Source of the DNA: Branchiostoma floridae
Taxonomy: Eukaryota > Chordata > Leptocardii > Amphioxiformes > Branchiostomatidae
Reading direction: 5' to 3'
NCBI RefSeq assembly: GCF_000003815.2
Contig: NC_049992.1
Coordinates: 6,143,918 to 6,207,917, forward strand
Length of the DNA stretch: 64,000 nucleotides
Shown here: positions 3,207-61,600 of the stretch, in pieces
Layout of the letters: each line of letters opens with the position of its first letter
Position numbering within the stretch: the stretch's first letter is position 1
Position numbers and translations under genes: made by a program
The notes under the pieces: generated by a model
Told to the model about the DNA's origin: nothing
What the model saw: only the letters and a program-made list of their open reading frames with translations
Database searches by the model: none

Positions 3207-6200
3207 TTATTCTGCCTTTTCCTTGGTGTCTTCGCGGTGGTGTAAAAACACCAGGCTGAAGACGAAGAGTCCGAACATCATGGAGAAGGCACTGGCGTAG
3301 TACGGGTAGGCCGCCGCGATGAACCGCTCGTACTGGGTGTGGGTGAACGGGCGCACAGACACCTGAGGGAACAACAAAAATTCGGGAATGAGTAAAAATG
3401 GAATCAAGGGTCTTGAACTTTTTTCCAAACCAGTCGAACAAGAAAAAAAGGTTTTGTACCAAGCCCTAGTTTTGACCAATACATCTCAGCGTACCTGAGT
3501 AGTAGAGAAGAGGTGAGTGTAGCCTAGCCTGTTGTAGTCCACACGGTACTGGAACACTCCGTACACGTCGGGTAACTTGAACTCAGCCACAAACTTCCCT
3601 CCTGAAACACACAGGGAATAGACAGGTAAGGATACAAAAATGGTTGTGACAGAGAAGATAGATGCTATGTACAGTGTTTACAGGTTTGTTGTACCAGGAA
3701 AGTTCCCGTCTCTTTTCGACAGGCACTATGAACAGTGGCTTAACGTACCGTCTTAAGGATTGCAACCCTTTCCGGTAGTGTGTGTGTCGGGTGAGCAACA
3801 CAGCCGGGATCAAACTCACGGCTTCTAGTTCCAGAGACAGGGCCGCTAACCACTGGACTAAGCACACTACAGGTATTCATTATTGTTTACCCATGGCTCT
3901 TTAATTCATTCAAAAGTTTGTGAAACTTTTAAGTGTCAAGTTTCTACACTTAAAAATTTCACTGGTATTTCACTGGCCATTTTAGTTTAGTGAAGGAGTA
4001 GTTGGGTGCTGGATGGTTATTAAAACAGAAGTTTCCTAATAATAGAATATTCCTCAATCAGTCACTCTATGAAAGGCATAAATAAGTACCTTCCATTTTT
4101 TGATGGAAGAATATTCTATTATCTCCATTCATACATGACCAATAAACATCTTGAACAAAATGTGAAGAGTTGCAGAAGAGAGGTCACTGTAAAATATAGG
4201 GGAGTGCCACTCCGAATATATCGCCATGTACAATAAGCGACGAACCCCGACCTTTGCGTTGCATGGTGGTGCGCACGAACGGGTCGATCCGCACAAACTC
4301 CAGCTGGACATCGGTGGCATCAAACGGGACCCACTTCCCGTTCACCAGCTGCTCAATCACAATACTGTACACCTGTGGGTGGAGATGGGACAATCATTAT
4401 TAACAATCATCATAAACAATTATCAGAAACTAAAACCATCAACAATCATCATAAACAATCATCATAAACTAAAACCATCAACAATCATCATAAACAATCA
4501 TCATAAACTAAAACCATCAACAATCATCATAAACAATCATCATAAACTAAAACCATCAACAATCATCATAAACAATCATCATAAACTAAAACAATCAACA
4601 ATCATCATAAACAATCATCATAAACTAAGACCATCATCATCATAAACAATTATCATAAACGAAAACCATCAACAATCATCATAAACAATCATCATAAATT
4701 AAAACCATCAACAATCATCATAAACTAAAACCATCAACAATCATCATAAACAATTATCATAAACTTGTTTGGTTTATATAAAATCACAGAACCCACTAAT
4801 CATTAAAAATGTGGGACTTTTCATCAGCCACTGCCTCCAAAGAAGAAGTCAAACCTCGCAGTCAAGTATGTAGAATCATAAGACAGCTGTATAGAATAGA
4901 TACCTGTTACTTTGTTACTATCTGTACCCTTGCAATTAGCCTACGGGTATGAATTTGCAAATAAACAAATACAAATATACAGCTGTTCCTTTCTAGCCTG
5001 GTATCCAGCCGTACTATAGCAGTCTCTTCTGTGTAATCATGGGGAGGACAGAAAAGACTCAGGAGCTATAATATGGCTAACCTGACCTGAATTCGCAGCC
5101 CTAAATTTGCCATAAAAAGTTTCAACTGTGCCTTTGTCATATAGAATTCTGATCAAAGATTTTCAAGAGACTATGTACATGTACAAAATGTACTTAGCTT
5201 ACCGGTATCTTGACCTCAGGATATTATGTGTCTTTGTCACATGAAATTTTGATCCATGATCTCAAGAAACTACATGTATGATTAAGACATACATGTATAT
5301 AGACATCAGGATATATACGTTGTGGTGCCTTCCTTTTAACAGCTCTCATAGTTTATAATAGTATATAACAGAGAAAAAAACATGTATGGACCGTACCACT
5401 TCCTCCATGACGGTGTAAGCTGTGGGGGGTTCTTGTTCCCCCTTGCGGTGATGGCTGACCACCCCCCCACGCAGCACACCCTCCTCCTTAAACACCCAGC
5501 GAGACAGCGCCAGGGCGAATGCCTCGTTACCGGACTTGTCGTGCCTGAGGAAAGAACAACAAACCGTTCAATTTATTCATCAACTTCACAAGGAGGTGCA
5601 TATCGTTACCCGGCTTGCAGGGCTCTAGTCAGCTCGACATTTTTTTTGTCAGCCAATTCCCATTGTCGCGAAAACACTTTTCCAGAAGTTAGCGAGACTG
5701 AACTGAGACCTTGAAAAACGGGTTTTAATGAGATTATCGTATGCGAAAGGGCACCAACACACATTGTCAACAATCATAACAATAGCAAAACAAACAGTGT
5801 GTGGCTTTTACAGCCGTGGACGACGCCCCCAAGCAGCCTGTAGCTTCCACCAAGGAGCTTTTATCAGATTTTTGTCCGTCAAAGTTGACGGATTGGTTTT
5901 AAAATTTTTCCGTCACACGCAGCAAATTTCCGTCAATTGACGGAAAAACAGACGCTGGCTAGAGCCCTGCCGGCTTGTCATGCCTGAGAAAATAACAACA
6001 AACAATTCATTTCATCTATCAGTGTAACGAGATGCATTTCACCTGTTGGTGTTTTAAAAAGATTTTTGGGAGCCGAACCTTGGCATCATCTGGGTTGTAG
6101 TTTACTCCAAAGTAGGCAGAGGGTGTTTCGGGTGTTAGAATGCCTATTTGAATGATTGTTTGAACCAATTCCTTAATTTGCTCATGTGTAGGGACTACTA

Positions 6201-9200
6201 GTAATCAGTGCCCTCGTCAAAAATTTGGATGATTCCAGGCGTTAGAGATGTCAAGGTTCCCAGACAGAATAGCACAGATGCGACTGTATATATGTATATT
6301 AAAAGTCGGAGAGATCTACTATCCGGATGATAGCTAGGCTAGGGCAAACCCCAACATAAAACAACATTATGATAAGTCTGCAATACAAACTTTACAGAGC
6401 ACATGAGATGAGATTGCAAAGAGGTCAAGACAAAAGTAGGGAATATAAAATGATGCCGAATGTTTCACTACTATGATATCAAATGTTTGAAAAAAGATCC
6501 TTACTTCTGTGCCCCGGCCAGTGCCTTCTGTACAGAGGCAGTAAAGAACTCATCACTGAAGAGCTCCAGAGAACCAGTGAACACCACACGGGCGTTGTTC
6601 CTAGCCTGGAGTGCAGCCACCAGAAGGGTGTTCTTCCCTACAGCATGTGGGTACTGGAAGGTTGGAAACAAACACTGTTAACTAGAGCTCCAGAGACCCA
6701 GTGAACACCGCTCGGGCGTTGTTCCTAGCCTGGAGCGCAGCCACCAGAAGGGTGTTCTTCCCTACAGCATGTGGGTACTGGAAGGTTGGAAACAAACACT
6801 GTTAACTAGAGCTCCAGAGACCCAGTGAACACGACACGGGCGTTCTTCCCTACAGCATGTGGGTACTGAAAAAAAAATTATGGTTTTTAGTGGCAAATGT
6901 TGCCACATGCGCGTACATGTGGACATTGGCTCACCAAATACGTGTGTTTTGGGTACACTTTTGACAGATTAGCCATGAGAGTCTCAGTGGGCGTCACTCT
7001 ACCGTCAGGGACAGTGATGTGAGGTGCCTTTCCCAAGGGCACAATCCTGGGGGCAGGGCAAGTATCAAACCTGAGGCATGTAGATGATTCTAAGCCCAAC
7101 ACCCTTGGGAAAGGCACATCACACCTATTTCCTCACTTGACGCAGGTAAAAATGAGTACATAGCTTCAGCTAATTTTGACTTTAGGGACAGCACTTTAAT
7201 GCGATTGAAAGCAAGAGGCCTTATTACTACATTAGATTAGTCTTCTTTTCAGAAACCTTTTATCATGTACTGATGAAGATGACAGACAAGTTGTTGTAAT
7301 GTCTGCAGTAGAATAAAAGAGGGTTGTGTACCGAAGAAGACTATGGTCAACTGATTTACCTTCCTGATGAAACTATACAAACGTATATTGCTGAAGGTCC
7401 TGTTTTTGAGGAGAGAAACGTCTCTTGCACATTTAAGAACCCACCGCATTTATTGAAAAGGGTAGGGGTCCTTTCTGGTGTGAGTGGATCAAACCTTACA
7501 TTTGGACTTACACAGCTTTTACACAGTACATACAAAACTGGTGTGTTATGACTTGAGGCTGTTTACCAGGTATACAAAACAAACAAACAGAAAGAAAACA
7601 TACCTCAGACACTTTCTCATCAGGGTAGAAGGAGTAGGAAGTGGAGGATCCAGTCAGGACATCCAGCACAAGAGGGTTGTCTGTGTCTGCTACCATGCTG
7701 GAATATACAAGAAGCCACATGGGTATACTCAAGGCTGTTTGTCAATGCTGTAGACCGTACTAACGTATTTTATGGAGACAGAGGTTTTAACTCCAAACAC
7801 TCAAGAGTTACTGGTACAAAAGCATTTACTGATAAACATAGATTTAATTATGTTCCCGTGACAACCTACCCCTTACACTGGATTTCTGGGAAGACTTTCT
7901 CTAGCAATGAAATGGACATCACAAAAATTACAGCATATTGGGTAGATTAATTCAATAAAGCTCAAGCCAACACTTTCTACCATTTTGTGCCTTTACTAAA
8001 ACTGGACAGCACTGGGGACCTTTGGTTTGACATCTTATTGTTACATGAATTCTAAGAACTGGAGGGTCTAGGAACAGTTATGTTATACTTGGTAACAGAA
8101 AGATATCACTTACCCGACCCCCCTGAAGAGAATGGGTGTGTCCCGTTTGGTTCCCACGATGTTCTTAACGTCAATCAGGTTTTCTGGGTCGGCAACAATC
8201 AGGGTGTGCTGGCAACAACAAGTAACATAAGAACATGATGCACATGTACTACTGAACAGCCTAGTGGTGCATAAAAGAAAATGAATAGACAGTTGCAAGT
8301 TGAACATCAGTTTCAATATCAACGTAAATTCACAAATTTTTGCGGAGACTTAATTTTGAAATTAAGATGGATTGTACATGTTTGTTTTGGCAAGTGGGTG
8401 AAGTCAATGCACTTCATTTTGCCCTTTTGGGATGGAAGATGTAATACAGATCATTGCCATTATCTATAGTATAAAAAGGAGGGCCTATATACTCATTTCT
8501 GTAAGGCAAAGGCTGCCTGATTTTGTTTAAATAATTTGTAGGGGAATCTGTCTTATTCACATTCTACGGTGCGGTCAAATTTCTTGGTATTGCTTTCCTT
8601 GATTTTGACGTAATACACGGGGATCATCTAGAATCAGCTTTAACTGTTGTGCAGTCCCTCAACAAGTGACCACTGCATGTCTGCAACACTTGTTTGTTAC
8701 ACTAGGAGGCAATACAAAAACACAGACAGATGTTAAGGTACATGTAGTACAGGTGTGTGTCTATGTTTACCTGTCCCTCGTCAGCCAGGTCATAGTTCAG
8801 GTGATCGATCACTGCCGTCTTCTCCTCATCAAACTCCACGCCACACTCACTGGCCAGCTCACGGATTGGCTCACCTGAAATACATGAGCAAATATATATC
8901 TCACATATCTTTTTCTGTGTTAGCCATTACCTTAGTATGGTTTGCGTGCATCTTCAGTGACGCTAAAGAATAGTGATGGATGTCACTGGAAGCGTCCGGA
9001 AGAAATCTTTGTCTTATATGTTGTAGACATTAAATCGTCTTTAATTAAGCCTAAATTTACCTGACGAAATAGTTTGTACAATTTAAAGCCAACAATCAAA
9101 TGAGAAAAGAAATATCCAAACATGTATATCCTTTTACTCATGTACATTTGAAAATCTTTAGAAGAGCAGATACAGGGTTGATAGTCCACTACTTAAGGTT

Positions 9201-11146
9201 ATGCGAGTAATTTCCTCTTGGTGCAAGTAACTTTTGGCTTAACTTGCACCAGTGCATGTCTACCCATAATTGTATTTGAAGCCCTGGACTTCCTCTCAGA
9301 CTTTGTTTCCATGTTAATATTCCAATCTACTAGCATTACTTTTTTTAGGTCCAAGAAATCAAATTGATGCGGTCTTACATGTATCTATTTTTCAGGTAAG
9401 TAAACGGCTTGAGTAAGGACGTGCAAATCCCTCCTTCACCTTAAAAAGTCAGGTACAGGCTAGGCAGATGGCGAGTAATAACTGTCTGCCTACCATTGTC
9501 TTCCGAGACAGACGGATGCCAACAACAACAAAAACTGCTTGAGATAAGAAGAAATACTTACCAATCTCAGAGCTTGCGGCTACCAGGATGTTTCCACCTC
9601 CATCGATGAACTCTGTCAGAGCACTGGTGTCCAAGTTACCTCCAAATTCTGGGGAAAAAAACACATACACACATGTTGACTGTGATAAAGACATTTGCAA
9701 ACTAGAAATCTTGAAATGTTTATTTTCGCAGTTCTTGGAATGACCTCCCTGAGTCCCAGTCATGAATATGCATTTCCTGTACTACACGTACTGTACAGTA
9801 CGATGCACCGTAAATTAAAGTTAAACACCACAGAAAACCTCAGTGATATGTAAGCATTTAAGGAACATGAAAAAAATCGAACCTTCCACTGATGGAGCGA
9901 AGATGATGAGGTGTTCGAAGAGGAACTCTCCGTACTTGATGAGAGCAAGGCTTGAGTCGTCAGCAGTCTTGAAGGTCAGGTCGAAGCCTCGGTCTGAAAC
10001 AATGAGGAATTTCAAAAATTATACAGCCACGAGTGTGAACCTCCCTGCAATATAATATTTGGCAGTACGTTTGACTCAGGCCCAGAAGGTCCGGAGTTCA
10101 AACCCCGCCATGTCACCGATCTTGTGCCCTTGGGAAAGGCACTTTACACAACTTTTCTCACTTCACTCAAGTTAAAAATGAGTATATAGGCTACAAAAGT
10201 CTGCAGCAAGTTGAAGTTGGTAGCCTCAAAACAAAAGAAAGATCATGCTGGCAACCTTGGTTGTGCAAAAATTGTAAAATCTGCATTGTCTATAATAATA
10301 TATCTTTAACCTGGAAGCCTTAGGCTTAGGTCTCAGTTGCCAACCTGGGGCCCGGCCACGTACATGTAGCTTTCAGAAACGAAAAATATGATATAACAAG
10401 GCAACTAAACATACAGAACATAAGCAAAATTAGTCATTAGCATAATTTGTGCATTTATAATACTGTAAATGCAGAAATGTTCGCGGTGGATTAATGTTCG
10501 CGGTTTTTGCGGGGGTCGCTTAACCGTGAATTTAAAACCACTGCGAACATTTTTCCATAACAGTTTAGAGACTGCAGTGCATGGTGCTACCGCGAAATTA
10601 AAACCACCGCGAAAAGTCCATTTTCCCGCTACAGCGAAATTAAATCCCCGCGAACTTGAATTCATTTACAGTATTTTCTTCGTTTCCGCAAACATCCCGG
10701 CCGGGCCCCGGTTCTGAAAAATTTTGGATGGGACCGAAGTCTTACACTTACAGCGACTACTGACAAGCTCCTCGGCTCTAGTGCAAGGCCAAAATGCTTC
10801 CAAGGGAAAAAGACCCAGAAAATTGTTTGGGGCATGTTGGTCCTGGAGCCAAGGAGCATGCAGGTTTGAAACGAACCTGGACAAAGTCCTACTTCAGGCT
10901 ACACCAAAATTTGTGCATACTACTATTACTAGTACGTGGTGCCCCTCCCCACACGAGGAGCACCAGAATGTACACGCCTCCTGGGAACAAGTCACACCAT
11001 CTTCAAGACTTCTTACCTGCCAGAGACTTAAAGAAAACGGAGTGGGACTCCTTGATGGCCAGGTTGTCCAGCAGAACGAGTGTCCGCCCGCCTGCATGGA
11101 CGCCGACAAGAGCCGCCAACAGAACAATCAGCACACGGGAAGCCAT
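3207..11146 (-). CDS. DDOST: Oligosaccharyltransferase 48-kDa subunit (OST48)
   Basis: Non-catalytic subunit of the ER oligosaccharyltransferase that N-glycosylates nascent proteins. Eleven exons, in order: 11017-11146, 9883-9993, 9562-9648, 8771-8874, 8114-8208, 7604-7697, 6505-6653, 5397-5544, 4252-4372, 3495-3601 and 3207-3362. All have GT-AG borders and phases that join without a break, giving 433 aa, a normal family length. The start [10 protein letters not shown] begins an evident signal peptide. Family hallmarks seen: [17 protein letters not shown]-like [78 protein letters not shown] and [15 protein letters not shown] single TM helix near the C-terminus ([20 protein letters not shown]) precedes a short charged tail. 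Exons 7 and 8 have duplicated 5' edges in the introns upstream of them. The gene stands head-to-head with the TTC17-like gene. Confidence 0.96.
3740..3870 (-). mobile_element. tRNA-derived SINE head in DDOST intron
   Basis: On the minus strand an A-box-like TTAGTCCAGTGGTTAGCGG is followed by a B-box-like GTGAGTTTGATCCCGGC. The spacing is tRNA-like but no cloverleaf with a paired acceptor stem is evident, so this is read as a SINE head. It lies in the intron between exons 10 and 9. Confidence 0.65.
4395..4770. repeat. AT-rich minisatellite in DDOST intron
   Basis: About ten copies of a roughly 39-bp unit built from ACCATCAACAATCATCATAA and ACAATCATCATAAACTAAA. It lies immediately upstream (in transcript sense) of exon 9 in the intron between exons 8 and 9. 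The plus-strand open frame through it ([15 protein letters not shown]) is an artefact. Confidence 0.9.
5527..6050 (-). repeat. Duplicated 5' edge of DDOST exon 8
   Basis: The exon 8 edge with its acceptor (plus strand GTTACCGGACTTGTCGTGCC, then CTGAGGAAAGAACAACAAAC) is followed by a second copy. That copy is split by a hAT-type insertion into GTTACCCGGCTTG (5605-5617) and CCGGCTTGTCATGCCTGAGA onward from 5970. Only the copy ending at 5544 belongs to a complete exon. Confidence 0.75.
5618..5969. mobile_element. hAT-type MITE with 8-bp TSD
   Basis: The ends CAGGGCTCTAGTCAGC and GCTGGCTAGAGCCCTG are inverted repeats. The flanks are a perfect 8-bp direct repeat CCGGCTTG at 5610-5617 and 5970-5977. 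The element is 352 bp with no coding capacity. Terminal CAGGG and an 8-bp duplication are hAT-superfamily traits (established knowledge). Confidence 0.88.
6075..6340. repeat. Dispersed repeat in DDOST intron
   Basis: Shares ordered blocks with 44755-45135: TGAACCAATTCCTTAATT-like, GCCCTCGTCAAAAATTTGGA-like, and a block reading AGCACAGATGCGACTGTATA or a close variant. Probably a non-autonomous element. The exact ends were not determined. Confidence 0.6.
6654..6868 (-). repeat. Two extra partial copies of DDOST exon 7
   Basis: A 124-bp unit carries the 5' part of exon 7, its acceptor and adjoining intron. GAGCTCCAGAG starts at 6561, 6685 and 6809. The third copy lacks about 40 bp internally. 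Both extra copies keep the acceptor-side sequence (plus strand CAGCATGTGGGTACTG) but lack the exon's donor. Confidence 0.88.
7000..7150 (-). mobile_element. Degenerate SINE copy
   Basis: Plus-strand GGTGCCTTTCCCAAGGGCAC is the complement of the body of the SINE at 1355-1530. The head is strongly diverged. It lies in the DDOST intron between exons 7 and 6. Confidence 0.6.
7320..7570. repeat. Dispersed repeat (TTTAAGAACCCACC family)
   Basis: Shares the order GAGGAGAG, TAAAGAACCCACC (or variant), GGGGTCCTTTCTGGTGTGAG, GTGGATCAAA and ACTGGTGTG with 17640-17900. Shorter pieces of the same family (TTCTTTAACGTG...CTCTCC) occur near 30055-30120 and 41818-41880. Confidence 0.6.
10060..10200 (+). mobile_element. 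tRNA-derived SINE
   Basis: B-box-like GAGTTCAAACCCC is followed by CTTGTGCCCTTGGGAAAGGC and TTTCTCACTTCACTC, the same body as at 1355-1530. It lies in DDOST intron 1. Confidence 0.75.
10315..10745. mobile_element. Composite MITE in DDOST intron 1
   Basis: The outer arms carry AGGCTTAGGTCTCAG with a GGCCCGGCC block and, inverted, CCCGGCCGGGCC followed by GGACCGAAGTCT. They match the arms of the element at 38230-38880. Nested inside (about 10443-10680) is a second element bounded by ATACTGTAAATGCAG and TTCATTTACAGTATT, with GTTCGCGG / CCGCGAAC inner repeats. Confidence 0.7.
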
Positions 11147-11722
11147 GTTGGAGAGAGAAGAACGAGACTGTTCACAGCGGAATGATACAGCAAGTATTAT
11201 TCCTTTTTGATGCAAAATACATTAATAGAAATATCTTATAAAGTTTTAAAAAATATTTCAAATCTCGTAAAATTGTATATTTTACTGTATATTGTCATTA
11301 AATGTGTTTGAAAATGGACAACATGTTTGGACTACTTTTTCAAAGCGTCGATATACAACCAGCTGGAGCCGCATCACAGCGTGCAACGTGGCTAAGGTTC
11401 AAAGGTTATCATTAATAAGTTGATAAGTTACCAAGAAAAACAGTCATTATTTTCAATAACTTCATCAATACCTTTATTTAAATTTCATCTACTTCCATTA
11501 ATTTAATTTCGCACACGTTATATAATTTGTAAAGTTAGTGACATCGATTTTAAAGTAAAAAGGTTCAAAGTTGAAAGTTGAAGCCTAACCATGATGTCAT
11601 GACCATCATACCTTGCGGTGGTCGGAGGAGGTCGTCCTTTGACATTTGTGGGGGCAAATATTTAGTATTCGGAAGATTTCCCGGGATTTTCGTTGTTTAT
11701 TCGATGGTTTAAGGAAGTGACC
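11147..11722. promoter_or_regulatory. Divergent DDOST / TTC17-like promoter region
   Basis: 576 bp separate the two start codons in head-to-head orientation, so the promoters of both genes must lie in or overlap this interval. No TATA box was assigned. A bidirectional promoter is inferred from geometry only. Confidence 0.6.
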
Positions 11723-14700
11723 ATGGCGGGAGACCTTCCTAGTATATCGTACATGGCGCTGTATATAGTTTCAGCGAGCGTTGTAACGGACTCGCGCTCG
11801 GCGACCCACTGGAGGTTGGACCAAGAACGGGGGCTGGTCAGGCCGGCAGGGACAGAAGACGTCTCCGATCTCTTAGTAGGGGAGGGCGAAACCACAGACC
11901 CGCTTCTTGGCATCTTAACAAGAAATACTCAAAGTCCCTGGGAGGATTCGAACCCGGGAGCGATAGACGGAGCCTGTAGCACATGTGGAAAGTTCGGATC
12001 TGGCAGAATTAGTGGACAAGAAAGGTGAGGTTTGTCCGTTTTTGTCGAGCCCAGATAACGGTATCAGGGTTCGAGGGTATCAGCTGTCAGTTGTTGTTTA
12101 CGTTTCTGCACCTGTTATGGAGAAACAACACCTCGTGTACATAAGCCTTCTTCACTAAGACTGCGAATATGAAGAAAATGTGTATGAGGAAATAAGATTC
12201 AGTACACAAGGCAAGGAGCCTTACTTTTTTTTAGTGAACAACATTATTTGGAGCCTGCTGGGATTCGAACCCATAACCTAAAGGTCCTTAATCAACAACC
12301 TTATCCACAAGAACCTATGTATAGGGCCTGGGAAAAAATTGTTGCGTTTCCTGTTTCAGTCTTGTAAAAGTTAGGGTTGTTAGGTAAGGATAATCTTCTT
12401 TTTTTCTTATTTCTAATGCTGGCTACAACTGTAGTGTGGCATATTGAAAACTATAATAAATACAGTTGAGCAAAGTAAACTGAAATATATAAGGAAACTT
12501 AGTTTATTACAATGTTAAACTTGAATGTTGTGCATAATAGATTCATTTATCCTTCATTAGATAGGACAAGCAGTGTTTTTACTTCAATTGGAATCCGACT
12601 GAATGAAGATTTAAACTGGAAGCTATGTGACTCCACTGTCCACCAAAAAAAATTCTAGGGTCGGCAGGTTTTTCTGGAGTAGGTAGAGAAACAGGAAAGA
12701 CAACATTCTTTTTCTATTCCTAGGCCTTGTGTACACGAATGGTGTCTTAGCCATCAAATAAAGATAAATAAATCAGTATAAACCACTAACTGTGATATTG
12801 TGTCCGTAGATTGTTAAAACTTGAATCAGAAACGACGATCCTGACCTGTGGTGATGCAGTAAACGAAACGCAGTACGACCACCTGGACGGCATCGCACAA
12901 CGACACAAGCACAAGTCCCACCCAGAACCCGAGGTCGCCATGATCTTCAAGAAAACAGAAGGGGACGAGATTGACATGAACGCTCTAGAACAAAATCTGA
13001 GGATGACCCTTGATGAGGTGCGATATTCATTTTCCTTAACTTGAAGTTCTTTATATAGTAGGACATTCATATATGCACCATATCTAATTTATGGTAGATT
13101 GTACACTAACAGATACCAAGTAAGGAATTAATGTGCTCGATTAATGCATAAGTGCCATAATTCCTTTGTGGTAAATGGTGGGAATTTCATACTTGTGACA
13201 ATTTAAGATGCATATTGCCATGCAATAGATGTAATGTGACAGTAATTTGCATAATTAAAATTCAAAGGACTACCAGTAATACTTGAACACTACATGTATG
13301 TAATTTTAGTATGACAGAGAAGGCTCAGTCTATCATTTAGAATTGATTATGCTAGTTACAGCCTTATTTGCATAATCAATAAGACAAGATAATAAACAAA
13401 GGAAAGCTGTAAATATTCATGGAGCTTTAACTCCAACCCTGTACAGTGAAAACCAGAGATTTGCAAAATCAAGGTTTTCCAACAATTTGTGCTGCATGTC
13501 TTAAAATAACTTTTCCATGGGAAATATCATATCTATGTAATAGTAAGTGTGCTTCTACAATGACTACACCATATTAATTTTTGTATGCTGTACAACTACA
13601 AAGTTAGACAATCATCTAGTCATCCATCTTTTTCAGAATCCCAAGTCGATAGCCGTGTACAACCAGATAGGGAACTTCTTCCGAATACGCGGGAACACCT
13701 TCTCAGCCATAGAATGCTTCCGGAAGGCGTTGTCTCTGTCGCCTAGCAACCCGGACATCCTGCTGAACCTGGCGCGAGTGTTGTTTAACCTCCAGTATCT
13801 GGACGACGCCATCCACCTGACCAGACGGTCGCTGGAACTACAGCCTCCGGGACAGAACTGTTGGCTGCATCATTTTACACTGGGTCAGCATTTCATTCAC
13901 ATCATGTTATCTGTTTCATAGTCTTACCTAGGGGCTGGGACAAAACCGTTTTTTCTTGTTAGACTGGTCCGGAAAAAAATGGACCTGAAATAAAATCAGT
14001 GGAGTGGACTTTGGATTGTAACAGTGCACTGTGAAAGCTCTCTTCCAGGCTGATGCATTCATAAATTCCTGCATCATTATTTCTAGTTACTGGTTCTCTC
14101 AGGGACGTATAGGTGTAGTTGGAATTGGCATAGTTGTCCAATTTAATACAATATAATTTCATGTAAAAATGGTAAAAATGCATTATTATTCAGTCTACAA
14201 TCCATCTCCCCTTTGCAGGTGAAATACTAAAAGCATACGGGAACTACCACGAGGCCAGTATCCACTTCAGACATGCCCTGGACTTAAATCCTTCCTTCCT
14301 ACCTGCCAGGGCCCACCTACAGGTAAGTAGACACAAAAAAAAGTCTCAAACAAGCTGTGCAAAGATCCTCATTGCACAGAGGTATTGTTTTCTGTCAATG
14401 CAACTGTCTGTGTTTCTGCAGTGATTTTTAATTGCTAGGCATGTCTAAACCACATTGATAGTGAAAGGCAAAATGGTCTCATTGTAGAATGACAGAGAAG
14501 TGAAAATCATGGCAGGAAGTAGAGATCAGTGTTGGCAGAATTAGCAATTACTAGTATCCAGCTTGTATGACAACGAACAGACAATGATTTACTGGACTCA
14601 ATGAAAGAGTAATTCACACATAGGTATTCTTTTGGTCTCTGTGTGTTTCGCAGTTACATATTTTTCATATGCGAGTCACATTCAACATGGAGTGATCAGT

Positions 14701-15039
14701 GGACACTTGAAATGTTGTGTAAAACCTTATTTGCAAGATTGATCAACTACAATTAAACAGAACATGCGATTTTACTTTAGATATTTCTGGCTAATACACC
14801 ACTCAATTCCCGTGCTTTTCTCTTAGTCGCTGGCCAACCCCCAGACCTCCTCAGCAACGGTATACACTGCAGTCATCATCAGCTGCCTGATCGTGGGGGT
14901 GCTGATCTGTTTATGGCACAGCCTGGACATCTGCCATCACACGTGCGGAAGCCCCACCAGGAAGACCCTCCGAACGGTCGACTGGGACCGCAGCCGAATC
15001 TCTATACCCTCCCGCGTGATACGCTTCAAAAAAGTTTGA
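11723..15039 (+). CDS. TTC17-like TPR membrane protein
   Basis: Five exons: 11723-12024, 12810-13017, 13637-13883, 14219-14322 and 14827-15039. Phases join without a break and give 357 aa. The start is ATG in CCATGGCGGG. The N-terminus is weakly signal-like, followed by THWRLDQERG, which recalls the N-terminal THW motif of TTC17. Residues from about 101 contain QYDHLDGIAQR, then IAVYNQIGNFFRIRGNTFSA, ECFRKALSLSP, ILLNLARVLFNLQYLDDAI and KAYGNYHEASIHFRHALDLN. This is a run of TPRs in the same layout as one of the TTC17 modules (my recollection of the family). After the TPRs a clear TM helix (VYTAVIISCLIVGVLICLW) and a basic tail of about 47 residues follow, which TTC17 itself lacks. TTC17 is linked to actin and cilia, but no function can be assigned here. 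A GEIL / HFTLG exon junction confirms the splice at 13883/14219. Confidence 0.8.
12240..12320 (-). mobile_element. tRNA-like SINE head
   Basis: The minus strand reads GGTTATGGGTTCGAATCCCA, a near-consensus B box, with an A-box-like GTGGATAAGGTTGTTG upstream. No acceptor-stem pairing was found. It lies in intron 1 of the TTC17-like gene. Confidence 0.45.
12323..12728. mobile_element. AGGCCTAGG-family MITE
   Basis: Left end AGGGCCTGGGAAAAAATT then GTTGCGTTTCCTGTTTC. Right end AACAGGAAAGACAAC then TTCCTAGGCCTT, inverted. The interior contains ATAGGACAAGCAGTGTTTTT and TACTTCAAT, shared with the copy at 18063-18384. A left-end fragment lies at 62316-62400. Confidence 0.8.
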
Positions 15040-15844
15040 CCGAAAAAATTAAAACTTCCGTGTTAAAAAAGCCATATTCTTGACCAACTCAATGGTACCA
15101 CTGAATGATTTTGGTACTGAAAAAATAGACAATGTTGTCGCCCAGAAAGCGACACCTCCAACTGAAAAAGATGGATGAAACTTCGTTTTTCACGATATGT
15201 AAATTGCATGGAACTTCTTAAAAAAAGGTGGTGAAACATGACTGTCCTTCAACAGTGAGTTTACAAGTGCTGTTTGAGATTAGACAACCTACATGTATCT
15301 ATAGACAAGATGGGCAAATGTTTTGTTGTTTTGTAACAGAAGTATTTCTGAATGGCTACCTCTACAAGGAAGTCGTTTATAGGACTCTTAAGTTTCCTAT
15401 TGCAGTGGAAAATGACAAGACTTGTTATGAATGTTGATGAAAGCAGGTTGAAAAAAATCCTGGACTGCAGTATGGTTAAGGGCCAGTAGAGGTCTCTGTT
15501 TTGCATATGTAGGTCGAAAACCACATGGTCAATTTGTGAAACATAACAGTTACCTAACCCTTCTCAGTTTCAACCACACCCATCTTTGTCATTACAATAG
15601 TGCCAGTATTTTTGTTCACAAATTTGTTGCAAACTTTTTACCCACTGAAATATAAGGTGACCACTAGTACATGAAACGGCAAAACCTGGGGTCTAGATCA
15701 CCTTGAACATTTGTAGTCCATTGTTTATTCTAATTTTAACTGAAAGTTTTATGATTTGAAAATATATATATATTGTTCAGTTGCAAAGATGTTTGTTGAG
15801 AGAGCATGAGGACTTATTACCAGTATTTAATGTGAAAAAAAAGG

Positions 15845-49600: not shown

Positions 49601-52600
49601 TGTTCATAAGAACATAAGATAAGTTCATAAGATAACTCAAGAAGGGACAAATGGATTTGGGGCATGTCTATGTTTTTGCTGGTTAAGAAATTTTTAACAC
49701 GAGATAGAATGAATGATTCACGGATGTAGAATGAATTTTATTTGTAAAAGAAATTGCAGCCTATAATCAGATGTTTGTTATTCTTATAGTTACTAATAAA
49801 TTAATTTGCAAAAAGAAACTTTATTTTCAAATTACAATATGTGTTACATGGCAGATATTCATACACTAAGTTTGGAGAGTGTAACACCAATAGGCATCAA
49901 TTGTTAGCAAAAAGTCGAACATGTTATCATGATTAATATCATTCAAGCCATCTTTTCTCACCCCTATTTGATTATGCACCCTCAAACCAACGACGTTATA
50001 ATTATTTCACATAACGTCCTTGCTCAAACTGGGCCAAGCCGCAGACAAATCTGCAAGGCTGAAATGAAAAATCAGCTTAAATACGGGCCTAATCTTGAAA
50101 ACATTTTAAACTAAATATTCAACAATGTAGTGCTGTGTCCCTTCTCTTTCCCTAGGATAAATCTACTTAAATCAAGGTTTTCCTGGTGTTGCTGAAAAAT
50201 GCTGTTTTTCTCGTTCCTTTACAAACTTGTCAAGCACCCACTGCTTAGTATAAAATTCAGTGATGCAGCAGAGGTAGTTTGTTCGCAGAAGCATATAGAA
50301 AGCAACGTGACTCCAGATTTAGCATCTGATTCAGTTCTGCTCTATTCTATGGGAAAATGGAGTTTACATTGCATGTTTTTCTGTCCTATCGGTATAATCT
50401 TAAGGGAGGAAATTGCTGCCAAAAATATGGCTTCAAGTTACTTTAAGTCTTAAAACTTGATGTTCGAGCTGATTTCACCATGAGTCTTGTTAAACATATT
50501 ATATTATCCACATGGAGTCTTGTTAGGAAGTCCAACTGAACTGCTTTTTTGCTTCCCCCCAGGCCCTGATGCTTTTCTTGGACTTGATGGACTCAAACAA
50601 TTGTGCCTGACCAAGAACATGATTTCTGCCATATCCAAGTTTGCCTTCTATGGCCTCCCTGTCCTCACTACACTGCAATTGCTGCAGAACCGCCTGACGT
50701 CTGTTCCCATCAATGCACTTCTTCAACCAAAAGCATTGATGATGGCCGATCTGGCACAAAATGCCATCACCACCATATACAGTGATGTCCTGCACCTGAC
50801 ACAACACAAACACTTGAAACTCGTGATGCAAGCAAACAAGCTGAAATGCGACCAGGATCTGAAATGGTTCATCTGCAATCTACCGATCCTGGACCAAATC
50901 CAGGATCGATTCTTCCTGAGGTGTGCTTTCCCACATAATCTCGAAGGAACTCTCATCAGCAGCATGTCCAACAACCAGGTTGCCTGCCAGACCAATCAAC
51001 AAGGGGCTGGGTCCAAAACGCGCAACATAATGGCCAATACAACAGTTGTTGCAAAATCATATGGATTCATTGCAGGATCCAAGCTGGATGTAACAGGCCC
51101 TCAAACAGTCAACGCACATTTGTACAACCACACCACTGAGGACCACACAAGTTTACCATTCACAAATGCCATGATCCCAGTCTCCCAGGACACCACTGTC
51201 ACAGAGGGGTACTACGTCATCATCCTTGGGGGAGACCCAACCAATAAAGGGGATGGCACACAAAACATGAGCAATGCCCTTGTTGCTGTACTGCTGTTTT
51301 TGTTGGCAACAGTTGTTGCCTTCTTCGCCTACAAAAGCTGTCCTGGTAGAGGATTAGACTGTCATGACATATCAGATGATGAAGAAACAGATAACCATCA
51401 AGTTGAGCCATACGCAGTAATCTATGCTGACATGGCTGAACTAGAAGGATCCAACTCAGCCACGGAGGTACAGCCCAGCCCTACATGTGACCAGACATCA
51501 GACAACATTCAGCCAGATGCAGTGGCTGGAGGCCCAGGACCACAGCTTCAGCCTCATGCAGTGACCTGCAATGACAATGCCAGGCATAGCAAGGAGATTG
51601 GCTACAAGATCGAGCCATACGCAACAGGATACCCTGGTGACCATGACCTTCCAGAAGCTGCAGAAATCCACATCGAGGCAGATTCTACGCCACTGGAAAA
51701 CAGCGCTGACCAACAGGTTAGTAATACAGGCATCAAACAACCAGTCATCCTCTCTGAAGATTGTGACCAGTCAATTGTAGAGGATGCCAACATACAGCTA
51801 GGATGTGAGGACCAAGAAGTACGAGATGGCAACCACTCCAGCATCAGGACCACAGACCCAGTACCACAGCCTCATCCTCATCTAATGACCGGCAGTGATG
51901 ACCAACAGGAGACAATCATCAAACAACCACTCATCACAGAATCAGATGGACAGCCACAGCCAAATGATGATGAACTACAGCCAACATATGAAAATGAGTT
52001 CGAGGAAGCAGGAAAATGCAACCAATCCATAAGAAATAAAAGAGGTCCTAATAACACAAATGAGATTCCAAGTGAAAATGGGATGCTGGACAGAAGTGGC
52101 TCACAGCACACTGGTTCAAAAGAGCGCAGCCTGTCTTGCGTCCTGTATAACCCAGCTCATGGACAGCCTGAGTGTAAGGACGACACATCTAATGTCCTGT
52201 ACAACCCAATTGATGGATAGCCTAGTACATCAGTCAAAGTAAACCTTCAGTACAGCAGTGAATGACAAAGACCCTAAGTATATACACTGTACTTTCCCAT
52301 GAGTTGCTGGGGAGGGAAACCCAGGGTCAAATCTGGGTCACTGAGAGACAACTGTTATAAGGTTTTGGAACTTGAATTTACCTCTTACTAGACACATATT
52401 AACTGTTTGTGAATATGCATCCCATTCCAACTACATTTAAAATGAAGGTCCTTCATAAAAACAATATATAATCATCATCATTATTAGTATACCATCTGAG
52501 AGTATGAAAACACTCACTGACTCTTTGAACCAACTTTCCAACACAAGAATTTGATTCACCCCTGTTCAACTCAAGTCTTTGTCAAGGCAAATTGAGCATT

Positions 52601-55600
52601 AAATCCACTGCTTCTGTGATGTCAATCTATGTACATAGAACACGTGACTCTGTGAGCAGTGGATCAGATGTTCCACTGCTCTTATATCTAGTACATAACG
52701 ATGTAACAGAAGCAGTGACTCTGTGAGCAGTGACACGTTACACGTGAGCAGTGAATCGATGTAACATTGGTCACTCTTTGACAAAGACTGGACTTGGACA
52801 GTTGAAACTGGGGTAAGTCCTTTCAACTGGGGTAAGTCCAATTTCTGTGCTAGAAATCACAGTAAGTTCAACTGTGAAACAGAATAACTAGTCTACCCAA
52901 CATGCACATGATCTAATGATTTCCCAATATATAGCAATTCAAACAAAGGCCAACTGCATGCAGGTCCACAAAAATCATATTTATAACAGACTAGTACTAA
53001 AACAATGGACAGGAGAGCAGGATTCTTTTAATTGTCTGATACAGAAAGCACGGAGATTTAACAACTCTGCTTTCATGGTGACTTTGACTGCTCAAGAGGG
53101 TAAAGCCTTAGCTTTGAGATTAAACTGGTCACAAACATCCTGACACTAGTGAAAAAGAAGAAACAGTGGTTTGGCAATTGCTACAAGTGCAAAGGGCACT
53201 TTGACCCACACTATACTCCAAAGAAGGGCGGAGGGTGCAAGACCTAGGGGACGTCCACGACGGACTTGGACTAGTGATTTGAAAGAATGGTCAGGACAAA
53301 CAGTCCACCATCTGGCAACCTTGGCTGAGGACAGACAAAGGTGGAAAACTTATGTTGATGGATGTGCTGCCCCTACGGCCGATGAGGCTATGGGACCGGT
53401 GAGGTGAGGTGAAACATCCTGAGCTGCCCAAGGCAGACTGAAACCAATCTCGGCCCCAAGACTAATTTCCCAACAACATGAAGATTCTGATCAGCATTGC
53501 ACCTCCCTTACATGTACATGTATCATTAATTTACACAAACATAATTTGTATTCTGACAACCTTTGTGAAACAGTAGCCAATATGTAAAAAAAAAAATTTT
53601 AAAAATCAATGAAACCACCAAGTGAAAGGAAATTGCATCAAACTCATTTCATAATTGTAAAATACAATCCATATTCAGGCAGTTGACTATGTATGAAGTC
53701 CATAGGTGACGCACATTCATTCAAGATGTTGCAGAGAAAGGCACTGGTCTTACTACTGCTGGTCTCCAAAAATTTGCTATTAGTAGCTCAACAGTGTCCA
53801 GAAAACTGTCATGCCACGGGTAAGGCATTCTCATCTCACTGTAACTGTCCAAGCAAAAATGGGATGAGATCACCATGCGGCTGGGTGGGACATGGAGGAA
53901 ACCTATACAACTTTCCTGTATGCCTTGCCTCCATACCAAGCGGCGCCAACAAGAATTTTCAAGCACTCTACATCAAACATCTTCGTTCTGCTACACTCCT
54001 GGAACAGTCTTTTGAAAGCTATAGGCATTCAGGGCTTCAATTTCTGAGTATCCATCAGTCAAACATTTCCACAATACAGCCGAGGGCTTTTGAAGGTCTG
54101 CAAATGGTGACATGGCTCTACCTTGTTGACAACCGAATCTCCAATATAGGTGAGTTGAAGTAGATTTTGACACTTGTTAGCTTTGACATTTAGTTAACCA
54201 TATAGAATACAACACGGTGTATCACCCGAAGTACCAGCCCAACCGCGGGAAGGATCTCCCGACGGCCGAAGGGTGATCCGACCCGCGGGAAGGCTAGGAC
54301 CGAGGGTGATGCGGAATACACCGTGTTGTATTTCATTTATGTCATACCCACCTGAGCAAACACATATTTCGATGCGAAATGCACCAGAAGTTGAGAAAAT
54401 GTTGTGTCCTCGAACAAAAGATTGTAACAACAGCAATTCTAACGTCCGAATCCGGTATTCAAATTTTCAACCATGCCGTATTCAGCCCATTCGAAATAAT
54501 TTGATTTAGTCGAAAGAAGCCTGTGTGATACAACTTTCGAATGTATGTGAACGGAAGTTATCACACGGTTCGAAACACCCGTATCGAAAGCTTTCACGTC
54601 ACAGGTATGACACATAAAAAAAAAAGTGCACTGTTTTTAGTCTGTAGGTTTGCTTGTTTGTGTTTCTAAATATTTGTGGTCAGCAGAAATTATAATCAGG
54701 ACTGGATGGATGTGATGATGTTTGGTGTGATGGTATTTTTAGTAGGCAATGGTTAAGGTCAATCATAGAGTCTGACCTCTCAGTAGCTGACCTTGGTACT
54801 GTCGCACAACTTCTGATTTTTGTACCTTTTGGCCTGGACATGCTACTAGTACTAGTCCTGGGTCTGTATTTTTGATGGTAGAAAGCTTGATGTCAAGAAG
54901 GGGTGACGTTTTGTTAGTTTGGACCCCTTATCAGCTTGTTTTAGAACTGCAGACGTGAGACATTTCCGATAACCTGAACTAGGCAAGGATGGCTTTCCAT
55001 ATTTGGTATGCACTGCCAGGTAGCATTATAAAAAAACAATTTGTAATATATATATATATACAGAGGTGGTTTTTATAAGGTTCCAGTTCGAAATTTGTTG
55101 TGACTGTACCATAAAGTAATCTGCGAAAATAAGACGCAATTAATAGGTGTCCACATTTGTTTTGGCTCTCAAATTTTCTGCTACCGCTATAGAGTGCATT
55201 ACCTGTTTGTATTCCCCCCAAAGTCTGTTCTTCGTAGCATTTTTCTGTGGCGCAGATTTTGCCATGCGGTCAATACTTCCTGATATTAGTGCTCAATAGC
55301 GGTAATGCCTTTTCGTCGCCTGATTACCCAGAATGTATGTTCTATGTGCATTTTGAGTGTTTTGGAGCCACTGGAGCTTGTGGAAAACGTATCCTCACAA
55401 TTTTCAATTTTTTACTCAGTATACAGAAGAAATCTTGACCTTGACCTTCATTGCCAATTAGTCATTATCCAGGGAAACTTCATTTTTTCCTTGTAGCAGC
55501 TTGTAAAGAATGCCCCCAATTTTGGGGTAAAAATTTCATTTTATTGATCATGGTTTTTACCAAAAATAATATTTCTACAGAAAATGTCAACTGTGTCGGT

Positions 55601-58600
55601 CAGCGACAAGGCACCCTTTTCTACAAGAAACAATTTGAATTGTCGGAAAACGCTGTTTTGGGAAGCAATTAAGCGCTTTTCCGAAAGACACTCAAATCAA
55701 AACAACAATTTGGTTGTGCCTTGAACCTTCTTTTATTTCCTCACAGAAACTGATGCTTTCCTTGGGCTACAGAACCTGACAGCCTTGATCCTAGACCAAA
55801 ACATGATTTCTGACTTATCAAAGCATGCATTCCGTGGGCTGCCTTTGCTGAAAAGACTGTCCTTGGCCAGGAATGAACTGGTTACCGTGCCCATTGATGC
55901 AATTCTACAGCCTAAGGCTTTAACAGATGCAATACTACACAAAAACCACATTACCACTATTGGCAGTGATATCATGCGTCTGGAGCAAAACCAGCATTTA
56001 CAGCTTTCAATACCAGATAACAAGCTGCGATGTGATGAGACTCTAACATGGTTCGTCTGCAACCTGCATCACCTGAACCAGATTTCTGGTCGCAAGAAAC
56101 TGAGGTGTGCATCACCTGTTGACCTGCATGGACATCTCATCAACGATGTCATGATCAGCTGCCCGCCTTATCACCATACAAACAGGCCACAAGACATCAT
56201 TGCATCCACGGCACATGATGAATTGTCCATCACAACAGGTATGAGTGTACAGATGACATCAGCACATCCCGTCACCATCTATCCGAAGAATGAGACCATT
56301 GCCACTGAGACGTACACAGACATGTCATCTTCAAAGGACATGTCAGTCTCTCAGTGCACAACAGAGAAAGACCATGTCATACTTCTTGGGGCAGGCCCTA
56401 TCACCAAAGACAACAGCATCTATATACTAGCCATGACCGGTGCTGCTGTTCTACCCCTAATTCTTACATTGGCAACATTAGGCGCGCTCTTCATCTACAA
56501 AAGCAGTTGTGGCACAGAAAGCGAGAAAATCGATCCGTATGCAGTGGTTTACTCTGACACTCTTAATCCTCAAGTATCACAGGAAAACATGGCTACTGAC
56601 AGAGAAACCAATGCTGCTAACCAGGCCCAAGAACACAATGATGATACCATTCAGCCATATGCAGTGGCCTACAATGAAGACCCAGGGTCAGAGATTCAAC
56701 CATATGCAGTGGCTTATGTTGATGTGTCTGGGAAAGGGAAAAATGGCAAGCTACCACCATATGCAACCACATCCTGTGGTCCCGATCAAACCCCAGATCC
56801 TAGCAATACCATTCAGCCATATACAGTGCCCTATGATGATGACCCAGGGTCAGAGATTCAACCATATGCAGTGGCTTATGTTGATGTCACAGGAAAAGGG
56901 AAAAATGGCAAGCTTCCACCATATGCAACCACCTCATTTGGTCATGACCAAACCCAAGTTCCCAACAATACCATTAAGCCATATGCAGTGGCCTACAGTG
57001 AAGACCCAGGGCCACAGCTTCAGCCTTATTCAGTGACCCACGAAGAACCAGGATCAGAGCTTCAGCCTCATTCAGTGACCCACGAAGAATCAGGGCCACA
57101 GCTTCAGCCTTATTCAGTGACCCACGAAGAACCAGGACCAGAGCTTCAGCCTCATTCAGTGACCCACAATGACGACCCAGGGCCACAGCTTCAACCTTAT
57201 TCAGTGACCCACGAAGAACCAGGACCAGAGCTTCAGCCTCATTCAGTGACCCACAATGAAGACCCAGGGCCACAGCTTCAACCTTATTCAGTGACCCACG
57301 AAGAACCAAGACCAGAGCTTCAGCCTCATTCAGTGACCCACGATGAAGACCCAGGGCCACAGATTCAGCCTCATTCACTGACCCGTGTTGAAAACCCAGG
57401 GCAACAGTTTCAGCCATACGCAGTGACCTACGATGAAGAGTCAACAATTGTTAAACAACCAATCACCCACTCAGAAGTCCAGATGAAAGACCCAGGACAA
57501 ACACCCAGGACCACAGCTTCAGCCATACGCAGTGACCCACAATGAAGACCCAGGACCACAGATTCAGCCATATTAAGTGACTCACAATTAAAATCCTTAG
57601 GACCACAGATTACATGCAATGACCAGACACAACCCATGACCAGAGTCAGCCTCATGTAGTTGCCAGTGAGAGTATGAAGACCCAGGACCACAGATTCAGC
57701 TATACCCGTGATCAGTAGGTGAGATGTGGCTAAACATTTAGTGTACTTACCTAAAGGGGGACACCAAAGACACTTCCTTTGATGACAAATAAACTGAATT
57801 GATGACACAGACCAGTGCAAGTGACGAAGAAGTAATTTTGGGGAAGATTTTGTATACGAAAGGAAGGTGTATGGGAGGTCTCTGGTGTTCTCCTTTCATT
57901 CTAGTCTAAGTTTTGATTTGTCAGAACCCTAAAGGTTGCATTAGTCTGTAGCTTACAGGTTTCTGCTTGCTGTCTGTCTCATAGTATGCTTGGTCATCTG
58001 GGTCCTCTTCTACCATCCCTGGCCACCTGTAGGGCAACAGTACATGTTAGTGTAGCCTGACTAAAATTGCGCCCCTAGCGGCCGGCCCTACGATTGCCGC
58101 CGCTCTCGGGGAGGGGGTCATTAAGCCCAGCCAGCTTGTGTAAACACAGGCTACATGTTAGTGCATGTGACCTGGTCTTAGTGACTTAAACCTTGACTGA
58201 TTCAGTTTGTACTATCTGTATCTGAAATTGTTCCCCCAGTGTGACTAGAATCCTGTTACAGGTTGCTAAAAATAGTCAAATTTTACTGAAATCAATAATT
58301 CAACTTAAAAAACCAACAACCAAAATATCACATTACATTGCATTTCTGTACCAAAAAATACAGTATTGGGAAGCATTCCAACCAGAGTCATATGACATAG
58401 AATCGAAAGAAATACATTTGATTGTAAAATCTTGAACTTGACATCTAAAATAGTTTGATGCAGATACCATGGGTATCCAGGCATCTTGGCCCAAACCAAA
58501 GACCCCTCCACATAACAGGTGTCCACAAACTCCAGTTTACTCCAGTCAGCTTCTGTCTTTTCACAGCTGTTGTACTCTTCATCTAAGGACACAAAATTAT

Positions 58601-61600
58601 AGGCATCAAAAATTTTGCTATGATTTTATTCAACCTTAAAACTCTCCCTGTCTACTGAAAAATTCAATAGAAAGTAAGATTAAAAGCAAGCATGTCAATG
58701 TAACACAAGTGCCTTAAAGCTCTATGGTCACTCATTAGCTCATACATGTATTACGATATAGTAATAACTTTGCAGTGCTATCCAGTAGTAAAAAGTGCCT
58801 TTGTCAGTAAAAGAAATAGGCTGTGGAACAAATATGCTGTACTCTTAGTCTCATGATGTTAGATTCAGTGCTAGCTGAATTCAAAAGTGACTGCTTGCAA
58901 ATTTGCCATTGAGGAGTCAAAAAAGCGACTTAAGTCAGACACAGATCTGCACTTTAATCTAAGCTTTAGGGCCATTTTTTTCTCAGCCTCACTGCTGATT
59001 ATGCACCTAATAGATTGACTACAAGTAAATTCTTCACCTAATAGATTGACTAGAAGTTTGTAATATATTATATTTTTATTATAGTTGTAAGCCATAAGTT
59101 GTAACTGACCTAGCAAAAATATATGTGCATGGTATAGACATTGTGTAGTATCTAGTGTGGGACTCTTGACTGATCATGAACTTTAATTTAGCATCAGGGC
59201 CTAACCTGGGTTCATAGAACATGTCCACTTGTCTGGCACGGTGGTAGGATCGGTCACATCGGCCAGGTAGCGCCACTTGTTACACTTGTCTGCAGTGCAC
59301 TGCACCCAGGTCCCCTGTTCCTCGATCTCACGAGACAGAAAATGTTTCCTCCTGTAGAAAAATAGTGAAGCGTTCAACATGTATAAGTGAGGTGATCTTT
59401 GCAAACCTAAGAGGCTGAAGAGACAGCAATTCAGTGAGGATTAATGCATAACATTTTGGAATGTTTTAAACTTTTCATAATTAGGCTGAAATAGTTGAAT
59501 AGAAGTCTACAAGTAAATAGAATGATAGCCATGTGGAAACAAAAAAAAAAACAGAAAAAAAACAATAGAAGAACTTAGAAGTGGCTTAGTTTAAAGTTGA
59601 CGATAAAAAGAATCATGAAAAATAACAAACATGATCGACTGACTTTGGCATCCTTTTCTTGCCGTTTCTTTGTTTTCAGTTTTTATAATTAGGCTGAAAT
59701 AGTTTAATCGAAACAAGTTTTACTAAATATAATGTAATAACCATCAAAACAAAAGAAAGAAATAGAACTCTTAGAAATGCCAGTGGCTATTTAGCTTGAA
59801 ATTACTGAAAGAATGTAAAATAACAAACGTGATAGACTGACATTCTTACATAGAAAGAATGTAAAATACCAAACGTGATAGACTGACATTCTTACATAGA
59901 AAGAATGTAAAATACCAAACGTGATAGACTGACATTCTTACATAGAAAGAATGTAAAATAACAAACGTGATAGACTGACATTCTTACATAGAAAGAATGT
60001 AAAATAACAAACGTGATAGACTGACATTCTTACATAGAAAGAATGTAAAATAACAAACGTGATAGACTGACATTCTTACATAGAAAGAATGTAAAATAAC
60101 AAACGTGATAGACTGACATTCTTTCATAGAAAGAATGTAAAATAACAAACGTGATAGACTGACATTCTTACATAGAAAGAATGTAAAATAACAAACGTGA
60201 TAGACTGACATTCTTACATAGAAAGAATGTAAAATAACAAACGTGATAGACTGACATTCTTACATAGAAAGAATGTAAAATAACAAACGTGATAGACTGA
60301 CATTCTTACATAGAAAGAATGTAAAATAACAAACGTGATAGACTGACTTTGACATCCTTTTCTTGCCCTGTTTCTTTGGTTTACGGGTAGAGGAGATGGC
60401 AGGGGATGATGGCCTTGTCTCATCTGTAAATTCATAGATGCTCTTTTTGCCTGGAAATGTAGTTCAGTAAATTATGTTATTTCATTCCATAATCATTTTG
60501 AATTGTACTGTCATCGAGAGTGAGAGAATGAGAGAGAGTCATTGCTGGTTTGTATGGAGCAATTGAATGATACTTTTCTGAGCATCAAATTCTTTAGAAA
60601 TAATTCAATAACAGAATAATGATGATTGAAATATGAAGCTATGCCTTGTCATTTCATGTTGATCTTTCATAGTTGCACTTTAGTTGCTAGAAATGTACAT
60701 CAAGAAGTACCATCTGGGCTGCACAGGGCAGGTAAATACTTTATACCCATTAATTTTGAAGCACTCATACTGGATACTGTCTAACAAGTAACATGAAAAA
60801 TTCAATACATGTATCATTTTTTTATTCAATAATATTTATCTTCCCGTTGGCTACGAAAACAAAGTTCAACTTCAAAATTATAGCTCTCCATACAGGCATA
60901 CACTGAATATATCACCCATAATTTGGGCCATTGTAGGTGCACAAAAGAAATTACCTAGCAGTACGTATACACTAAACCATTTTTACCTGATATTCATTTA
61001 ACCTGTATATTTTTTTTTAGGCAATGCAGATGGTACTTTGTGACCTGATTCTATTTTGTATTACAGTTGTTTCTATTTATACATGATTTGTATAATTATT
61101 ATAAAAGCACTATTTTTCTGAATATTCTTTAAAATTATCTAGTTTGTATCATTATCAAATCAATGATTAACTTAAATCACAATAATTTCACTCTTTCATA
61201 GATGAAAATGTAGTGTTATGAATTTTGTCTTTGTAAATTCATAGATGCACTGGTGTATGAACATGTCCAATGTAGGTGGAATTCACGTCTACATTAAGTT
61301 ACAATGATGAGTGTATTTTGAAAAAAAAAATTGTGACTGATTGTTAACTTGAATTGTTGAAAGTTTATCTGTGTTCAACTTGGTAGAAGTTATTCTGGAT
61401 CAAACTAAGGTAGTGTAATTTCTAACAGAAGAATTTGATTTAAAGAGTCCTAACATTTTCAACTGTACATCCAACTCCAGTGTTAATGTCATTCCTAACA
61501 TTAGAGTTGGACAGTCGATTATTTTGTTGGAAATTACAGTTTAACTTTGATGATAATGACTGTTATTACTACTTATTCTGATCACTAATGATTAAATGGT

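Follow-up and report, generated by a model that had tools for sequence, protein, structure and literature searches.

Minisatellite-like duplications of intron-exon boundaries have been described in amphioxus and termed mirages (PMC3087553; PMC3902484). In the excerpts of PMC3087553 used here, the globin gene BflGb9 carries a mirage of 157 bp and BflGb6 one of 150-160 bp, the latter having 6 or 3 units depending on the haplotype, and the turnover pattern of globin mirages is given as alike inner units and divergent outer ones. Earlier cases cited in these two papers are Adh3, retinol dehydrogenase, presenilin, and troponin C; for Adh3, length and somatic instability and units of 10-72 bp are reported in those citations. 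No genome-wide count of mirages was found in the literature, as represented by open-licence papers. In the present study, a window of 64,000 nucleotides from Branchiostoma floridae (NC_049992.1, positions 6,143,918 to 6,207,917 of the forward strand) was analysed, in which six exons of three genes have tandem copies of one exon edge together with its splice site and nearby intron: DDOST exons 7 and 8, RBM42 exons 2, 7, and 8, and ZCWPW1 exon 4. These features are of the same kind as the published amphioxus mirages, and the phenomenon itself is already published. They are most probably ordinary local tandem duplications in which the unit happens to straddle one splice site, tolerated where they fell rather than aimed at exon edges.

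Gene models were built from open frames and splice consensus sequences, the exon-intron junctions being predicted, and contain 89 splice boundaries in the window. The DDOST model, on the minus strand, has 11 exons that read as one open frame of 434 codons, stop included, across the authentic splice sites; with its exon 7, a match to the solved 48-kDa subunit of OST was obtained (E 4.3e-19). The frame of the RBM42 model is likewise intact across the authentic splice sites, with nine exons and 432 codons, and exon 8 matches RRM_1. Two exons of the third gene match zf-CW and PWWP. Beyond these domain matches, the names RBM42 and ZCWPW1 are those that we presume to apply. The RRM exon is exon 8 of 9 in our RBM42 numbering, having been called exon 7 in the initial annotation, where our exon 7 was exon 6; exon 4 of ZCWPW1 is numbered within the part of the gene seen.

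All of the duplicated edges are on the minus strand. At DDOST exon 8 (5397-5544, authentic acceptor at 5544) there is one copy, at 5605-6040 with a decoy acceptor at 5983, which is interrupted by a 352-bp element and has a period of 79 bp once this insertion is discounted. At DDOST exon 7 (6505-6653, acceptor at 6653) the 124-bp unit of the array at 6560-6871 is present as one full copy and one with an internal deletion (decoys at 6654-6871, acceptors at 6777 and 6865). RBM42 exon 8 (18454-18648, acceptor at 18648) is preceded by three copies with units of 136-161 bp, the array extending over 18606-19195 and the decoys over 18754-19195 (acceptors at 18795, 18940, and 19102). RBM42 exon 7 (19384-19545, acceptor at 19545) has five copies of 130 bp at 19603-20254, with decoy acceptors at 19675, 19805, 19935, 20065, and 20195 and a total array extent of 19473-20254. 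On the donor side, RBM42 exon 2 (23830-23935, donor at 23829) has one short copy at 23417-23446, alike over about 30 bp, with GT at 23428 and a period of 78 bp without a 315-bp insertion; this copy is too short for the BLAST filters and was found by eye. The donor of ZCWPW1 exon 4 (60348-60450, donor GTCAGT at 60347) is abutted by a 46-bp array at 59807-60347, in which 11 units have a donor-like GTCAGT. There is also a distant copy of the end of this exon at 59603-59676, which is 85.5 % alike to 60310-60382 and has an intact donor-like site at 59643.

Tandem copies spanning part of an exon, its splice site, and intron are thus present at six out of six sites, although the RBM42 exon 2 copy is short, and the similarity between copies is far above chance level. 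The six exons named in the initial annotation were all recovered, and the anatomy of the sites agrees with its division into four acceptor-side and two donor-side cases and with its statement that the periods differ (here 79, 124, 136-161, 130, 78, and 46 bp). In every case the authentic site, as defined by the reading frame of the models, is the copy adjoining the exon body.

Within the RBM42 exon 7 array, the inner units are 95-100 % alike (98-100 % among units 2-4) and the outer units 85-93 % alike (85-89 % for the outermost), so near-identical inner units and divergent outer ones, the pattern of concerted evolution, are present here. The pattern is absent from the four units of RBM42 exon 8, which are 75-90 % alike. 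Two elements resembling miniature inverted-repeat transposable elements (MITEs) have inserted into the decoy regions. The 352-bp element at 5618-5969, which sits within the copied exon edge at the DDOST exon 8 decoy, has inverted ends CAGGGCTCTAG and an 8-bp target duplication CCGGCTTG, on the basis of which we take it to be hAT-like. The 315-bp element at 23454-23768, beside the RBM42 exon 2 decoy, has ends TAGGGGTGG/CCACCCCTA and an 8-bp target duplication GTCCTACA. The duplication at DDOST exon 8 is older than the insertion there, because the decoy is split by the element, and in both decoy regions the elements entered later than the duplication. When the elements are discounted, the periods of 79 bp (DDOST exon 8) and 78 bp (RBM42 exon 2) are close to the 78 bp given previously.

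These differences between copies bear on whether the arrays could be assembly artefacts, formed by joining alleles or reads in tandem. Globin mirages vary from haplotype to haplotype, and BflGb6 was misassembled in one draft (PMC3087553, excerpts). However, substitutions distinguish the copies in the window, the inner units of RBM42 exon 7 being the most alike, and two decoy regions contain element insertions with 8-bp target duplications. The same kind of structure has also been published from other sequencing, and the excerpted text of PMC3902484 gives re-sequencing support at PGBD5, a gene with 60-bp and 108-bp repeats, the copy number of which varies between assemblies. It is therefore extremely unlikely that the arrays are artefacts. 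When the RBM42 exon 7 and ZCWPW1 units were compared with the genome (513,431,437 bases, one assembly) in a search that scores its best candidates only, there was no match beyond this locus among the matches listed, and none of these represented a second haplotype. A dispersed transposon carrying splice sites was rejected as the source on the basis of these two units, each of which is found at this locus only among the matches listed, in keeping with the earlier proposal that the copies do not derive from one transposon.

As a positive control, a globin search of the same genome gave nine loci, which were put through the same repeat pipeline with an exon threshold of 10. Locus L037 has a donor-side duplication with a period of exactly 157 bp and an identical decoy donor. 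Locus L041 has an acceptor-side array with three decoys ahead of the exon and acceptors 154-158 bp apart; AG was found at 1347 and 1035 by script, and the third, at 1189 before GTTACTCC, was read from the letters. L037 and L041 match the published BflGb9 and BflGb6 mirages in side and period, which agrees with an origin of the genome from Branchiostoma floridae but would also be compatible with another species of Branchiostoma. At L036 there is an array between predicted exons, and no such repeats were found by this pipeline at five of the nine loci.

The sites in the window share with BflGb6 and BflGb9, as described in the excerpts, acceptor- or donor-side duplication of the boundary, retention of AG or GT in many copies, and homogenised inner units; they differ from them in being in DDOST, RBM42, and ZCWPW1 and in having later element insertions in two decoy regions. 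Tandem repeats across exon-intron boundaries are likewise reported for Adh3 and troponin C, with similar structures in retinol dehydrogenase and presenilin, although the 10-72 bp units of Adh3 are shorter than most of the units here. Lancelet PGBD5 also has tandem repeats at exon edges that include splice sites, but this is another gene, and an annotated, unconfirmed extra exon lies within its repeats (PMC3902484, excerpts). A model of intron gain by tandem duplication, that of Rogers, is cited in the excerpted PMC3087553. As at the present sites, the splice signals in such intron gain are carried within the duplicated unit, whereas here no new intron is seen and the copies lie within existing introns. 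Intron gain by tandem genomic duplication, in which the duplication carries splice signals, is reportedly the subject of PMC4974935 as well.

There are 11 decoy acceptors (two at DDOST exon 7, one at DDOST exon 8, three at RBM42 exon 8, and five at RBM42 exon 7), and AG is kept in all 11. Their scores range from 4.0 to 8.2, compared with medians of 6.4 for authentic acceptors and -0.9 for background AG; the matrices had this window as their training set, so the scores are descriptive only. At RBM42 exon 2, the decoy donor and the real one both score 8.1. In the far ZCWPW1 copy, GT is kept and the score of 4.1 equals that of the real donor, while the eleven 46-bp units with GT, at 3.4, fall within the lowest tenth of real donors. 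The decoy sites are therefore intact, as had been claimed. This raises the possibility that the copies are functional, the decoys acting as alternative acceptors or donors, tuning splicing, or giving transcripts destined for decay, and the complete retention of AG, at scores that fall within those of real sites, is compatible with such a role. So is the decoy at 18795 (the first at RBM42 exon 8), use of which would add 147 nt (49 codons) in frame and free of stops. However, this is the sole exception among 12 decoys (all 11 acceptors plus the donor copy at RBM42 exon 2); extension of the exon to any of the other 11 would lead to a frameshift or an early stop. In addition, Adh3 data and globin reverse transcription PCR (RT-PCR) suggest, according to the authors in the excerpts of PMC3087553, that mirages do not interfere with regular splicing. 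The age and shared descent of the copies may alone account for the presence of AG in all 11 decoys, and no claim of selection on them is made. A functional role is very unlikely, and the decoys are probably ignored in vivo.

For duplications that are tolerated rather than aimed, the following course of events can be proposed. Tandem duplications and minisatellites arise frequently in this genome. Within a coding exon, a duplication would usually break the protein and be lost, while noncoding duplications would be free to remain; whole-exon and internal coding duplications would both alter the protein. A unit straddling one splice site would leave the exon intact, provided that the spliceosome picks the copy adjoining the exon body. 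This copy has the acceptor lying furthest downstream or the donor lying furthest upstream, and its choice would be favoured by pairing of the nearest acceptor and donor across the exon, as in exon definition. The copies could later spread and be homogenised by unequal exchange, as in any tandem array. If units with one splice site are tolerated and coding ones are purged, survivorship would be expected to yield copies of partial exons without any process aimed at the edges.

Whether exon edges are singled out was assessed in the window, in a random sample, and at eight RRM loci. The random sample consisted of 24 regions of 10 kb (226,688 bases without N) with exons predicted ab initio. Positions were drawn by a seeded script on contigs C1-C17 using estimated extents, and the first 24 of 200 drawn were used; sequence towards the far end of several contigs, and every smaller contig, thus lies outside the sample. 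In a check with genes left out, the exon predictor at a score of 12 found 31/36 internal exons, 24/36 with both edges exact, and gave 5 distinct false exons; the survey used an exon score of 14, between the checked values of 12 and 16. Four ZCWPW1 edges were 1-3 bases off in the predictor check and the whole-array test but correct in the coverage and unit-level tests. As a result of the stricter BLAST filters, the whole-array placement test counts four of the six sites and the coverage measure five. Since a long array can engulf an exon, placement of whole arrays gives too high a chance expectation; the fairer null works at the unit level, with each unit assigned a random noncoding or edge position. 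The array lists and unit lengths for the unit-level tests were compiled by hand for both window and random sample. The window test left out the coding array in the second leucine-rich-repeat gene and took the RBM42 exon 2 and DDOST exon 8 units as 90 and 78 bp (later 78 and 79). In the random test the unit of L031:6204 was entered as a guessed 43, where Tandem Repeats Finder (TRF) gives 62. Satellite-rich region L021 (three arrays, 10 of the 120 predicted exons) and three simple-repeat arrays were excluded from the resulting count of 21 arrays. Two further arrays, L011:9202-9438 and L032:3202-4059, cross the edge of a predicted exon that itself consists of minisatellite, and for this reason they do not figure among the edge cases.

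In the random regions, 3 of the 21 arrays duplicate an exon edge, compared with 1.8 expected (P=0.26), which is indistinguishable from chance. The first, L020:9-450, combines units of 47 bp with a 135-bp duplication, and in all seven acceptors of the form TCTCCYACAG precede a coiled-coil-like exon starting after 376. The second, L022:4845-5223, is a 188-bp duplication including the donor and about 9 nt of exon, in sequence that is ion-channel-like by eye. The third, L032:7987-8254, has an 80-bp unit; the reading frame points to 8183 as the real donor, with 8103 and 8023 as decoys.

Whole-array placement likewise gave no excess, with filtered crossings of 4/14 in the window against 5.7 expected, 3/19 in 19 random regions against 3.6 (6/22 against 5.9 with L021), and 4/22 in the random and RRM loci together against 4.4. 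Local repeats cover 5/89 splice boundaries in the window, below the 10.6 % of noncoding bases covered there, and 3.5 % of exon interiors. At the RRM loci, near an RRM exon, there is an apparent whole-exon tandem duplication (L005:2620-2963) with predicted exons at 2627-2754 and 2812-2939 that are 77 % alike. The earlier statement that the whole exon is never copied holds for the six sites, while this case elsewhere in the genome, judged from predicted exons, looks like a whole-exon copy.

An alternative is that exon edges are hot spots, with splicing signals, transcription, or exon chromatin promoting the start of duplications there. Several results weigh against tolerated local duplication, and some of them point in this direction. 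At the unit level in the window there are 6 edge duplications in 14 arrays compared with 1.7 expected (P=0.003), 6/9 compared with 1.6 (P=0.001) for units of at least 60 bp, and 4/12 compared with 1.5 (P=0.048) when two weak copies are removed; it was because of this feature, however, that the window was selected, which makes the excess post hoc. For the same reason caution applies to the greater proportion of affected boundaries in the window (6/89) than in the random regions (3/220; P=0.019). Counting the two doubtful arrays, L011:9202-9438 and L032:3202-4059, raises the random result to 5/21 compared with 1.8 (P=0.026). In the first 20 random regions, repeats cover 17/198 boundaries (8.6 %), more than the 6.0 % of noncoding bases, 15 of these 17 being in satellite-rich L021, and 8.1 % of exon interiors are covered, which is unlike purging. 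At the eight RRM loci, 2/32 boundaries are covered (both in the L005 whole-exon duplication) compared with 8 of 18,948 noncoding bases, and 5.1 % of exon interiors. The exons in the random regions are ab initio predictions, and the predicted exon at L032:7987 is itself a decoy; furthermore, the 117-bp donor-edge duplication at globin locus L040 has a copy without GT.

Edges duplicated in several independent genes have also been published (PMC3087553; PMC3902484), which would fit a hot spot, but those cases came from gene studies and their number is uninformative about other places. Against it are the random result of 3/21 once the doubtful arrays are dropped, the boundary coverage in the window, and the whole-array placements. 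A process acting recurrently on exon edges, as put forward in the initial annotation, is consequently not supported, despite the favourable post hoc count in the window, and a hot spot is unlikely; the random sample has little power against a two-fold excess, however, and a modest excess is compatible with the data. Overall, the interpretation in that annotation is partly supported, with its observation of edge copies at six exons confirmed as real. Tolerated local duplication, in which exon-internal copies are presumably purged, remains our preferred explanation.

The three random cases correspond to a rate of about 1 edge duplication per 80 kb, from which about 6,400 are estimated for the genome (95 % range 1,300 to 18,800). 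This is a rough rate, from a small random sample of one amphioxus genome, for a phenomenon that is treated gene by gene in the papers cited. If it holds, the genome would offer natural tests, in their thousands, of spliceosomal choice between identical tandem sites, and a measurable supply for intron gain. A bolder proposal, which we consider improbable, is that exon edges are a genuine duplication hot spot giving thousands of decoys that supply alternative splice sites and new introns, with the in-frame, stop-free RBM42 exon 8 decoy poised for use.

Some other features of the window were observed. Within one intron of minus-strand ZCWPW1, our models place two plus-strand genes resembling leucine-rich-repeat membrane proteins (46433-57956), and the second ends in a tandem array of coding sequence (56620-57700) with periods of 42, 87, and 162 bp and a LQPYSVTHEEPGP-like motif. 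The first SCO intron contains 298-bp direct repeats at 25746-26043 and 27374-27671, alike at 296 bases, which resemble the long terminal repeat (LTR) pair of an inserted element. In the same intron is an element of about 1.25 kb with inverted ends CACAAAAAGTTTGGAATATCAACT (27720-28980), presumably mariner-like. Separate minisatellites of 39 and 43 bp, at 15951-16428 and 34612-35525, are downstream of two different genes and have the core CCTGTCCYTGGTGCTGAACACCATC in common.

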